This document shows, one piece after another, positions 22,683 to 25,553 of a DNA stretch of 64,000 bases (positions are counted from its first letter, which is position 1; each line of letters begins with the position of its first letter). The notes below the pieces were generated by a model. The model did no database searches, had not been told where the DNA came from, and saw only the letters and a list, made by a program, of their open reading frames with translations. Position numbers and translations under genes: made by a program. This DNA is from Massilia sp. 9I (GTDB lineage Bacteria > Pseudomonadota > Gammaproteobacteria > Burkholderiales > Burkholderiaceae_D): contig NZ_LR733275.1 in assembly GCF_902506415.1 (NCBI RefSeq), positions 3,687,617-3,751,616 of the forward strand, given 5' to 3'.

Positions 22683-24362
22683 TCAGGCTGCGATCGCCGT
22701 CTCTTCCGTGCCGGCAATCGCCAGGTGGCGGTTCACCGCCGACAGCACCGCGCGGAACGAGGCCGTCACGATATTGCTGTCGATGCCGACCCCGAACAGG
22801 GTCTGGCCGCTGCCCACGCGCAGTTCGACGTAGCAGGCGGCGCGCGCGTCGGCGCCGCGGCCGATCGCATGCTCGTGGTAGTCCATCACGCGCACGTCCA
22901 GGCCGAGCGCGTTCACGAAGGCGTCGATCGGGCCGTTGCCGCGCCCCTCGAAGGCCTGCGGCGCGTGGTGGCGCGCCAGGTTCAGGGAAATCTGCACGCC
23001 CTGCGCGCTGTCTTCCACCATGCGGTGCGATACGTAATCGTAAGGCGTGCCTTGTTCCAGGTATTCGCGCGAGAACAGCGCGTGGATGTCGGCGGCGGCG
23101 ACTTCGCGGCCGGTGGCGTCGGCCATGCGCTGCACCGCGCGTGAGAACTCGATCTGCAGGCGGCGCGGCAGCTCCAGGCCATACTCCTGCTGCAGCAGGT
23201 AGGCCATGCCGCCCTTGCCTGACTGGCTGTTGACGCGGATGACGGCGTCGTAGCTGCGTCCCAGGTCGGCCGGGTCGATCGGCAGGTAGGGCACTTCCCA
23301 GATCGCATCAGGTTTCTGCACCGCGAAGCCCTTCTTGATGGCGTCCTGGTGCGAGCCGGAGAAGGCAGTGAACACCAGGTCGCCCGCATACGGATGGCGC
23401 GGGTGCACCGGCAGCTGGTTGCATTCCTCCACCAGCTGGCGCACCGCGTCGATGTCCGAGAAGTCCAGGCCCGGGTCGATGCCCTGGGTGTAGAGGTTCA
23501 TGGCGAGCGTCACCAGGTCGACGTTGCCGGTGCGTTCGCCATTGCCGAACAGGCAGCCCTCGACGCGGTCGGCGCCGGCCATCACCGCCAGCTCGGCCGC
23601 CGCCACCGCAGTGCCGCGGTCGTTGTGCGGGTGCACGCTGATGACGAGGGCTTCGCGCCGCTCGAGGTGGCGGCACATCCACTCGATCTGGTCGGCGTAG
23701 ACGTTGGGCGTGCTGGCTTCCACGGTGGACGGCAGGTTGACGATCATCTTGTTCTCGATGGTCGGCTGCCACACGCTGCTGACGGCATCCACGATCTGCT
23801 TCGAGAAATCGAGCTCGGTGGTGGAGAAGGATTCGGGCGAGTATTCCAGGCCCCAGCGGGTCTGCGGATGGCCTGCTACCAGCTCCTTGATCAGCCGGGT
23901 GCCCTTGACGGCGATCTGCACGATCTCCTCGCGTTCCATGCCGAACACCACCCGGCGGAACACCGGCGCCACCGAGTTGTAGACGTGGACGATGGCCTGC
24001 TTCGCCCCGGCGGCAGCTTCCACCGTACGGCGGATCAGTTCGTCGCGCGCCTGGGTCAGCACGATGATGGTGACGTCGTCCGGAATGCGGTTCTCTTCTA
24101 CCAGCATGCGCACGAAGTCGAAGTCGGTCTGCGAAGCCGAAGGGAAGCCGACCTCGATCTCCTTGATGCCGATCTTCACCAGCATCTCGAAGAAGCGCAG
24201 CTTCTTCTCCGGGCTCATCGGCTCGATCAGGGCCTGGTTACCGTCGCGCAGGTCGGTGCTCATCCAGATCGGCGGGCGGGTAATGCTGCGGCTCGGCCAC
24301 TGGCGGTCAGCCAGCTGGACGGCAGGGAAAGGACGGTATTTGGCGGCGGGATTCTTCAACAT
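22683..24362 (-). CDS. leuA: 2-isopropylmalate synthase
   Basis: 559 aa. Catalyses condensation of acetyl-CoA with 2-oxoisovalerate, the first step of leucine biosynthesis. HMGL-like TIM barrel: [11 protein letters not shown] near residues 35-45, metal-binding HPHNDRGTA, and the C-terminal LeuA allosteric domain (residues ~430-550) that binds leucine for feedback inhibition. The [13 protein letters not shown] start and ~560-aa length mark the long ('yeast-type') LeuA subfamily. AGGAGC precedes the ATG by 7 nt. Two short leader ORFs lie in the ~340-nt transcript leader, so leucine-dependent control by translation of the leader is likely. Confidence 0.95.
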
Positions 24363-24444
24363 TTCGTTTGCTCCTGATTGCGTGACACGACGGGCCCTGT
24401 GGGGGCGGTGGTGTGGCGGCAGGCTGCCGGGCGGGCCACGAACG

Positions 24445-24561
24445 CTAGGCCCGGCAACCGGTCGGTAGCTTTAGCAGCAGACGAAACTGGGCGCGCGAAG
24501 CTTCCGGCAGGGTAGCGCCGGTGGTGGAGAACGACTGGGAGTGGAACGGAATCTTGGACAT
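24445..24561 (-). CDS. second small leader ORF upstream of leuA
   Basis: 38 codons, [15 protein letters not shown]...[14 protein letters not shown], with AAGGA upstream of the ATG. Near its end it carries codons CTG CTG CTA AAG CTA, a run of Leu around a single Lys. Its last codons lie in the 5' arm of a possible hairpin (TGCCGGGC ... GCCCGGCA). It ends 82 nt before the leuA start. Whether it is translated is inferred only from its start site and Leu run. Confidence 0.45.
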
Positions 24562-24620
24562 CGGTGCAACTTTCCTTGACTGCTTGGGGACCGGCGGAGA
24601 GCCGGGACGTACGGCGTGGA

Positions 24621-24701
24621 TTACGCGCGTAGTAGCAGGGCAGCCAGCGCTAGCGCGCCGGCGGCAGGTAGGGAAGTCGACAGATGCAGGTGGAAAGACA
24701 T
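24621..24701 (-). CDS. leuA leader peptide (leuL-like), Leu-rich
   Basis: 26 codons encoding a peptide with 8 Leu (MSFHLHLSTSLP...LALAALLLRA). Four of the Leu codons are CTA, rarely used in this GC-rich genome. The ORF begins only about 8 nt downstream of a -10 element, so its mRNA would be nearly leaderless. Composition, position and rare codons are those of an attenuation leader sensing charged tRNA-Leu. No clear intrinsic terminator with a T-run was found before leuA, so the mechanism (attenuation, Rho, or translational coupling) is open. Confidence 0.65.
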   Translation of the reverse strand: MSFHLHLSTSLPAAGALALAALLLRA

Positions 24702-24709
24702 GCGATCCA

Positions 24710-24738
24710 CTCTAAAAGAAGAGCGGATGGCGTGTCAA
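24710..24738 (-). promoter_or_regulatory. leuA leader promoter
   Basis: Minus strand: perfect -35 TTGACA (24738-24733) and -10 TTAGAG or TTTAGA (about 24716-24710) at 16-17 bp spacing, directly in front of the leader ORF at 24701. Confidence 0.65.
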
Positions 24739-24764
24739 GCAAATATTTGTGCGGTGCGGAATAC

Positions 24765-25553
24765 TTACAGGCGCTCCAGCAGCGCCGGCAGCTCCTTGAT
24801 GAAGGCGTCGCGCACGCGCAGGCCGGCGCGGGCGCCGTTCTCACGTTTGGCATCCTGCACCAGGCGCACGAACACCACCGTGCGCTTGCCGTTGGTGGTC
24901 CAGCCCACCAGCCAGCCATGCGGCTGCATGCCCGGCTCCGAGCCGGTGCCGGTCTTGGCGTACAGGTCCCAGCCGTTGCGCAGCATCGGGTAGCGCATGA
25001 TCGACGCGGTCATGTCGACCGCCTTGCGCGACACCGGCAGGGTGCGGGTGACCAGCTTACGCAGGAACACGGCCTGCTCGTCCGGCGAGATCTTCAATGA
25101 GCTGCTCAGCCAGGCCTGGCTCAGGCCGTCCGCCTTGCCCGGGTTGCCGGAGGCGTCGCGGTTGCCGTAGTCGAAGCGGTCGATGTACGACTGGAAGCGC
25201 TCGGCGCCCAGGCGCGTGATGAGCTGCTGCGAATACCAGACCACGGACAGCTTCATCCACGCGGCCGGATCGGTCGCGGTGCGCCATTCCGGCAGCCAGT
25301 CGACGTAGCCAGCGCGAAAAGGCAGCAGCGGGTTTTGCTCGTCCACCAGGATGCCGCTGTCGTAGCCCATCAGGCTGATCGCCACCTTGAAAGTCGAGGC
25401 CGGAGACACGCGCTGCTCGCACTGGCCGTCGCGCACCAGCGTCTTGCCAGTGTCGGCGTCCACCAGCAGGGTGCAGCGGATCGCGCCCTGGCCTGCAGCG
25501 GGAAGCGCCGCGCCAGCTAGCAGCGCCAGCGCCATCAGGGATTTCAAGTGCAT
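24765..25553 (-). CDS. class D (OXA-type) beta-lactamase
   Basis: 262 aa from ATG at 25553 behind GGAGG. Signal peptide to about residue 21. All class D motifs are present: STFK (Ser53-Lys56; the Lys is normally carboxylated), SVV (103-105), YGN (129-131), W in SQAWLSSSLKIS, and KTGTG (200-204). It hydrolyses beta-lactams in the periplasm. It lies between the leuA leader promoter and infA, with no mobile-element traces, so it looks like a resident chromosomal enzyme. Substrate range cannot be predicted. Confidence 0.9.
   Translation of the reverse strand: MHLKSLMALALLAGAALPAAGQGAIRCTLLVDADTGKTLVRDGQCEQRVSPASTFKVAISLMGYDSGILVDEQNPLLPFRAGYVDWLPEWRTATDPAAWMKLSVVWYSQQLITRLGAERFQSYIDRFDYGNRDASGNPGKADGLSQAWLSSSLKISPDEQAVFLRKLVTRTLPVSRKAVDMTASIMRYPMLRNGWDLYAKTGTGSEPGMQPHGWLVGWTTNGKRTVVFVRLVQDAKRENGARAGLRVRDAFIKELPALLERL

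Follow-up and report, generated by a model that had tools for sequence, protein, structure and literature searches.

The leuA gene of Massilia sp. 9I is likely to be governed by a leucine-responsive, ribosome-mediated attenuator that would comprise two successive leader peptides and lack an intrinsic terminator, as judged from its sequence and from those of its relatives. That the leader is a leucine sensor is strongly implied by its codon content and arrangement, and ribosomes would probably sense leucine shortage through it and switch leuA on. In the window, by which we mean the whole 64,000-nucleotide stretch of DNA analyzed, leuA (22683-24362, minus strand) encodes a 2-isopropylmalate synthase of 559 aa, recognized by NF002991 and TIGR00970 above cut-off; its Shine-Dalgarno sequence is AGGAG (24371-24375), as read from the window, and all leader features described below lie on the same minus strand. 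A class D beta-lactamase gene (24765-25553; NF000270 above cut-off), likewise on the minus strand, terminates shortly before the leuA promoter. On the plus strand, infA (IF-1, TIGR00008; 25908-26171) is followed by a gene for a DesA-family fatty acid desaturase (NF049918; 26258-27439).

The leuA promoter and its adjoining leader ORF

The promoter reads TTGACA-18-TAGAGT on the minus strand and matches the consensus at 10/12 positions, with the -35 hexamer at 24733-24738 and the -10 hexamer, placed by the scan and by reading the sequence, at 24709-24714; it is the one promoter-like site in a scan of 24300-25200, where 0.1 were expected. ORF1 (24621-24701), a putative leaderless leader peptide MSFHLHLSTSLPAAGALALAALLLRA delineated from the ORF list, promoter geometry and codon counts, opens with an ATG at 24701 and extends over 26 codons to a TAA ending at 24621, its eight Leu codons comprising four CTG and four CTA and its 3′ end reading CTG CTA CTA CGC GCG TAA. 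The sequence-only reading had already pointed to a perfect TTGACA ahead of a 26-codon ORF with eight Leu, four of them CTA, and both statements were confirmed on the minus-strand sequence; the closeness of the ATG to the -10 hexamer, put there at about 8 nt, likewise held, the exact figure being 7 nt.

This arrangement recurs among relatives. All 79 of the first-collected leaders, a set gathered by DNA similarity whose members are related rather than independent, carry the same TTGACA, a spacing of 17-18 nt, TAnAnT or TAnATT, an ATG 5-7 nt further on and a Leu-rich ORF, the peptides of which often end in LLRA or LARA. A promoter with at least 10/12 matches and an ATG 5-8 nt past its -10 hexamer was found in 92 of 147 deduplicated leaders as opposed to 2 of 2940 mononucleotide-shuffled ones. 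Among 103 tandem-type leaders, two of which (L183 and L193) are likely spurious ORF1 calls, the distance from the -10 hexamer to the ATG is 6 nt in 68, 7 nt in 33 and 5 or 8 nt in one each. Given where sigma-70 promoters usually initiate, an ATG 6-7 nt past the -10 hexamer predicts that the first RNA base is the A of the ORF1 ATG or its neighbor. A leaderless 5′ end of the RNA is thus predicted from promoter geometry, the distance being 6-7 nt in 101/103 tandem-type leaders.

Codon usage sets the leader ORFs further apart from the gene they precede. Leu makes up 30% of ORF1 on average, and CTA accounts for 53.5% of 821 Leu codons in ORF1 and 62.5% of 571 in the tails of the second leader ORF, ORF2, as compared with 0.4% of the 5066 in the stretches of leuA that the same loci contain. 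GC-rich DNA readily yields short Leu-rich ORFs, and a chance ORF near a promoter might on that ground be invoked; given the conserved geometry, codon bias, reading frame and covariation, however, this explanation is untenable, and the comparison of leaders confirms that ORF1 does not stand beside the promoter by chance.

Leaders fall into two types, 102 tandem ones with both ORF1 and ORF2 and 47 others without a promoter-defined ORF1. The latter, a few of which are cut short, come mostly from other lineages (Alcaligenaceae, Cupriavidus, Lautropia and others); by the criterion applied none of the 47 has a separate CTA-rich ORF, and one of them, L114, shows a CTG-rich ORF1 by eye. In 23 of 46 non-tandem leaders the single ORF starts 5-9 nt past a TATGnTnGACT-like element, a purely descriptive count, the pattern having been drawn up after viewing the sequences. 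In three leaders from other orders of the class (L243, L246 and L247) inspection by eye showed Leu codons at the end of ORF1 as well, and after them a hairpin whose loop contains the ORF1 stop, a layout like that of ORF2.

The proposal of a Leu leader peptide at the extreme 5′ end of a nearly leaderless leuA mRNA is consequently supported by comparative geometry and CTA bias. It was nevertheless incomplete, as it missed what proved to be the more widespread half of the element, namely ORF2 (24561-24445) and a pseudoknot (24459-24413).

A second leader ORF and a covarying pseudoknot

Between the two ORFs lies a CCGGC-loop-GCCGG hairpin (24591-24605), identified by alignment and present in 53/102 tandem leaders versus 26/2040 shuffles; pairing of this hairpin with the pseudoknot stem S1 was considered and rejected, no covariation being visible by eye. 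ORF2 (24445-24561) encodes a putative second leader peptide of 38 residues with the tail CTG CTG CTA AAG CTA and a TAG stop in the S1 loop, and is preceded by the Shine-Dalgarno sequence AAGGAAAG (24570-24577), supported by the window sequence, the alignment and Shine-Dalgarno counts: an ATG led by such a sequence between ORF1 and S1 falls in the Leu frame in 67/102 tandem leaders and in another frame in none, the other 35 having no such ATG in any frame. The Leu codons ahead of S1 share a single frame in 146/147 leaders (L023, L107 and L114 were unplaced in this count out of 150, and L107 and L114 were later placed by hand to give 149), and the last eight codons of that frame contain 3.84 Leu, against 0.20 and 0.18 in the other two frames. 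Furthermore, the first base of the last ORF2 Leu codon is exactly 9 nt ahead of S1 in 145/149 leaders.

The ORF2-frame stop is found at S1+12 in 115, at S1+18 in 18 and elsewhere in 14 of 147 leaders, and where TAG has become TCG a substitute stop usually follows two codons later, as judged by eye. In four leaders (L051, L052, L055 and L126) the stop lies past the loop, yet upstream of leuA, and in five others (L106, L108, L114, L119 and L153), from three genomes of other families of the order, one genome of another order of the class and one Chromatiales MAG, ORF2 continues past the pseudoknot to a TGA that shares bases with the leuA start in the form ATGTTGA. L112 was excluded from this group on account of a misplaced leuA start and a frame change in its leuA match; in this locus (genome G475) the match changes frame near the N-terminus and the ORF2 frame enters the leuA ATG, through either a sequencing error or a real change.

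In the window the pseudoknot, which is of the H type, consists of the S1 5′ arm GGTTGCCGGGC (24449-24459), which begins 9 nt past the point where the last Leu codon starts; the S2 5′ arm GTGGC (24435-24439) inside the S1 loop; the S1 3′ arm GCCCGGCAGCC (24422-24432), pairing with 24459-24449; and the S2 3′ arm GCCAC (24413-24417), pairing with 24435-24439. Both helices were assigned by covariation. From the 79 leaders, 74 cores were obtained (L056 and L023 were missed, duplicates were removed and the range of L006 was lengthened by hand), of which 73 were then kept: S1 is paired in 99.3% and S2 in 100% of cells, double changes occur in 5 of 14 pairs, and as good a result was reached by 0/500 shuffles on four measures and by 1/500 on the fifth. 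A more diverse alignment, of which 81 of 90 leaders were used after excluding L116, L111, L113, L073, L060 and near-identical rows, gave 97.9% (S1) and 95.6% (S2) paired cells, double changes in 9 of 15 pairs and 38 double-change cells versus 6.7 in shuffles, with 0/500 shuffles as good on any measure; 16 of the 81 sequences are unpaired at one S1 position, and sliding the S1/S2 partners out of register abolishes the covariation signal.

The loop pentamer provides a direct view of S2. GTGGC is accompanied by a downstream GCCAC in 127/131 leaders, while ten leaders with a variant pentamer carry their own complement in all ten cases (GCGGC-GCCGC in seven, GCGAC-GTCGC in two and CTGGC-GCCAG in one) and GCCAC in just one. 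By way of background, the same 40 nt of the 131 GTGGC leaders contain GCCGC in 36, GTCGC in 20 and GCCAG in three. The variant pairs arise in separate lineages, with relatedness inflating their counts, and 8 of the 149 leaders (L060, L073, L102, L103, L105, L107, L119 and L120) lack a pentamer of the form sought. It is important to note that leaders bearing GTGGCAGTT were often given the wrong arms by the first automatic S1/S2 finder, and that the counts come from its replacement. On this comparative evidence the pseudoknot is conserved, with strong covariation.

A high degree of S1 sequence conservation would also be expected were the pseudoknot to bind a protein or small molecule with the ORFs being incidental, and a regulatory protein has been proposed for the actinobacterial LEU element in the available part of its description (PMC1262725). 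We nonetheless regard this explanation as very improbable: CTA usage of 62.5% versus 0.4%, a single Leu frame in 146/147 and the 9-nt spacing in 145/149 leaders together argue that selection acts on the translation of Leu codons. A programmed, pseudoknot-stimulated frameshift from ORF2 into leuA appears more improbable still. The pseudoknot does follow the end of the last Leu codon after 6 nt, a distance at which frameshift stimulators operate, but no slippery heptamer was seen by eye in the window tail and the S1-to-leuA distance is uniform modulo 3 (50/49/50 of 149 leaders), on which ground the frameshift into leuA was rejected.

Further candidates within the ORFs were considered and set aside. 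Peptide-specific arrest finds no support in ORF2, the N-terminal part of which is unconserved and the residue before the last Leu variable, the last residues being confounded with S1, and searches of three leader peptides against NCBIfam and Pfam returned no matches. In Massilia-type leaders the ORF1 5′ region CATCTGTCGACTTCC (24672-24686, minus strand) is partly complementary to the ORF2 ribosome-binding site (24561-24577), with -21.7 kcal/mol in the window versus -16.5 for shuffles; the pairing is weak overall, with a mean z of only -1.28 over 102 leaders, and is missing in several genera, and as a conserved switch it was discarded and kept as a lead. No structure emerged when the region spanning ORF1 and ORF2 was subjected to consensus folding across 62 leaders.

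Several individual leaders depart from the common layout. In L024 (genome G006) ORF2 has 71 codons, about twice the usual, and still ends in LVIGCRA at S1. In L111 (genus g42) the pseudoknot and ORF1 are intact and no Leu-rich ORF2 tail precedes the pseudoknot; many g42 genomes receive lower scores from the second covariance model (R2, below). In L023, from the same-genus genome G011, the promoter, ORF1 and the start of ORF2 remain, neither a Leu tail of ORF2 nor an S1 motif was found, and a palindrome with 13-nt arms GGGGTCnGAGCCC lies at 1806-1844 of that locus, between ORF2 and leuA; this leader offers a natural test of what ORF1 does alone.

Distribution of the element

A DNA search of 41 genomes returned matches in the window's own genome and in 24/24 same-genus genomes, the closest being G003 at 88% identity, and in 0/16 from other families of the order; in one of the same-genus genomes (G024) the match is short and the locus is without leuA. 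An alignment of the matches displays a conserved promoter, ORF1, the CCGGC/GCCGG hairpin, a second ATG headed by a Shine-Dalgarno sequence, and a block of very high conservation upstream of leuA. This block alone matches 60/245 family genomes by DNA search, and of the resulting 61 loci (L029-L089) the four weakest, among them the sole matches for G167 and G192, lack leuA.

A pattern scan brought up at least 118 stretches in named genomes, with the matches listed including Massilia, Duganella, Rugamonas, Herbaspirillum, Noviherbaspirillum, Herminiimonas, Collimonas and Glaciimonas, as well as Achromobacter, Alcaligenes, Castellaniella, Pusillimonas, Pigmentiphaga, Cupriavidus, Ralstonia sp., Lautropia, a Chromatiales MAG and others. 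Seen over all searches, the layout is shared by many beta-proteobacteria and by some gamma-proteobacteria. A leuA start is found within 600 nt downstream in 115 of the 118 listed loci (78/80 and 37/38); the leader statistics use the 80 loci L121-L200, the other 38 having been examined for leuA only. Two of the three exceptions, L136 and L186, hold just 51 and 89 nt past the match, and the third, L206 from a Planctomycetota MAG, fits the roughly one chance match expected.

The first covariance model, R1, matched 26/399 genomes of the order (18/158 genera) and 5/229 of the class, and all of the 25 loci L096-L120 except L115 carry leuA; G493 has two copies of the element, each before a leuA-like gene. 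Its successor R2 matched 139/195 genomes and 20/34 genera of the family, exactly once per genome, 10/329 genomes of the class and 4/199 of the phylum, where one weak match (L250) is without leuA. Nine of the class matches lie outside the order, all nine before leuA, and six of these (L243-L248) were not part of R2. The model was built with leaders of genomes that were later searched, so that some of its matches arise by construction. Its misses include two same-genus genomes, G011 and G218, and, as stricter filters were applied in both the R1 and R2 searches, missing matches do not prove the element absent. All leader sequences are related to one another and their counts are not counts of independent events. 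Taken as they stand, the comparisons indicate that the element is specific to leuA leaders.

Predicted mechanism, output and relation to known attenuators

Among the features that define an attenuator, a short ORF with pathway codons is found on the sequence side (Leu and CTA enrichment, a single frame and a Shine-Dalgarno-led ATG in 67/102), and a conserved RNA structure is suitably placed for an effect of ribosome position, from which we infer the switching itself. We propose that the RNA begins with the A of the ORF1 ATG or immediately beside it, with ORF1 translated as a leaderless message, and that ORF2 is initiated from its own Shine-Dalgarno sequence. When charged tRNA-Leu is scarce, a ribosome would stall on the Leu codons, its front edge meeting the base of S1, and leave the pseudoknot largely folded; if its reach is taken as 13 nt from the A-site codon, a ribosome holding the last ORF2 Leu codon in its A site would extend 4 nt into S1 in 130/132 leaders, and most of S1 and all of S2 would consequently be free to fold. 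When leucine is plentiful, the ribosome would go on to the stop codon in the S1 loop, where it must open S1, and would then open S2 as well and leave. The folded pseudoknot would permit leuA expression, whereas the opened and vacated leader would be subject to early transcription termination, with Rho acting in the linker upstream of leuA as the likeliest agent, and ORF1 would constitute a second checkpoint farther upstream. The direction of control, on at low leucine, is deduced from the role of LeuA.

How the ribosome's position would be converted into leuA output is where the alternatives diverge. A classical attenuator, in which S1 or the GTGGC/GCCAC helix terminates transcription in some state, is improbable: a GC-rich hairpin with a T-run between leader ORF and gene is not found in 24300-25200, where the scan returned 0 intrinsic-terminator-like sites with 0.6 expected, and no T-run follows S1 or S2 in the window, in agreement with the sequence-only reading's statement that an intrinsic attenuator with a T-run is lacking. 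TTTT does occur within 17 nt past S2 in 26/147 leaders, for example in Cupriavidus L125, and some lineages might therefore use an intrinsic terminator. The S2 3′ arm of L096, L125 and L131 (two Cupriavidus and one other genome of the order) is immediately followed by an extended run of pyrimidines, for instance CCCTTTTTCCGTTTTTC, which is possibly a rut site or a terminator tract.

Translational control, in which initiation at leuA would depend on the pseudoknot and on translation of ORF2, either through coupling or through elongating ribosomes that pass over the leuA start, is the main rival, and we hold it to be unlikely but of greater weight than the others. It draws on the five leaders in which the ORF2 TGA overlaps the leuA start, and translational coupling fits those leaders better than Rho does; a common leuA start ATGTTGA together with one frame would, however, produce the same overlap, which makes it weaker evidence than a designed one. 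In the window and most relatives, moreover, ORF2 ends well upstream of leuA: S1 and leuA are a median of 104 nt apart (range 73-223, 149 leaders), in the three frame relations 50, 49 and 50 times. The computed accessibility of the leuA ribosome-binding site averages 0.56 with the ribosome stalled and 0.53 with it at the stop, the site being more open by over 0.1 in the stalled state in 29/132 leaders and in the opposite sense in 10/132. Sequestering of this site was rejected as an explanation on account of these nearly identical means, which speak for transcriptional control.

Rho termination is accordingly the output we favor, as well as the weakest step of the proposal. The linker up to the leuA ribosome-binding site (24376-24412) is a candidate rut region that tends to be C-rich and G-poor in relatives, and this frequent bias, along with the lack of a T-run in the window, makes Rho the likeliest terminator. 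C is at least twice G in 68/125 linkers compared with 657/2460 matched-length pieces from the 200 nt before S1, which are largely coding; an unmatched comparison (63/118 vs. 3/145) had overstated the C-over-G bias, which shrinks with matched lengths. Against the Rho step, which draws on the missing T-run and on a twofold bias over largely coding control pieces, stands the linker, which at 48 nt on average is short for a rut site. Against the attenuator reading as a whole stand L111, with its pseudoknot but no Leu tail, and L023, with ORF1 and an ORF2 start but no S1 motif.

Comparison with known systems places the leader apart from each. Rfam covariance models matched the element neither in the window (E up to 1) nor in nine loci (E up to 0.5), sub-threshold matches falling outside it. 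The Leu leader of gammaproteobacteria, typified by E. coli leuL and presumably Rfam RF00512, likewise has a leader ORF with Leu codons ahead of a gene for Leu biosynthesis; the window element differs in its two ORFs, predicted leaderless first ORF, pseudoknot and absence of a T-run terminator.

The actinobacterial LEU element, as far as the available part of its description goes (PMC1262725), comes closer, as it too has a leader ORF containing Leu codons, a conserved pseudoknot upstream of leuA and no clear terminator. The Leu codons of that element form base pairs with the Shine-Dalgarno sequence of leuA, whereas those of the present leader lie outside S1 and S2, the tail CUGCUGCUAAAGCUA offers by eye no CUCC to AGGAG, the ORF stop is mostly in the pseudoknot loop, and the phylum is a different one; a pseudoknot in the leuA leader is thus common to both, though differently placed.

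A precedent for a leaderless leader peptide is provided by Sinorhizobium meliloti trpL/rnTrpL, for another amino acid (Trp), gene and lineage, where the accessible portions of the reports describe a leader mRNA that begins with ATG and a translated leaderless attenuator ORF (PMC7298713, PMC10117765). The Salmonella speF leader, in turn, combines regulatory codons, stop-codon-dependent folding and Rho termination without an intrinsic terminator; it responds to arginine/ornithine, is 500 nt long, and in the part of the account at hand no such pseudoknot is described (PMC6386406). The tandem attenuators of Salmonella mgtCBR, as partly available (PMC3641672), likewise place two short ORFs in one leader, before another gene, a likeness in the number of ORFs.

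A literature search, drawn from partial listings with thin coverage of subscription journals, found no account of this leader. Proteobacterial attenuators were reportedly surveyed by Vitreschak and others in 2004. In the available main text of another survey, of terminator-type attenuators, the word leucine is absent (PMC2965389). What looks new is that a predicted leaderless first leader ORF, a second Leu ORF and a pseudoknot loop containing a stop codon occur together.

More tentatively, and with somewhat less than even confidence, we suggest that these leaders may represent a widespread terminator-less proteobacterial class in which a pseudoknot 9 nt past the last Leu codon, with the ORF stop in its loop, gauges ribosome position, such that a parked ribosome would mean a folded pseudoknot and read-through and a finished one an opened pseudoknot and Rho termination, often preceded by a leaderless Leu leader peptide that would add a checkpoint at the first transcribed base. 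The compensatory pairs, fixed spacing and CTA codons lend themselves to simple and direct mutational tests, and a new RNA family could be built up from the covariance model. The leader also offers a test of leaderless leader-peptide function in attenuators and of pseudoknot attenuation without an intrinsic terminator. If the reading is true, it would provide a concrete regulatory RNA for leuA in a large group made up of Oxalobacteraceae, Alcaligenaceae, Cupriavidus and some other orders of the class.
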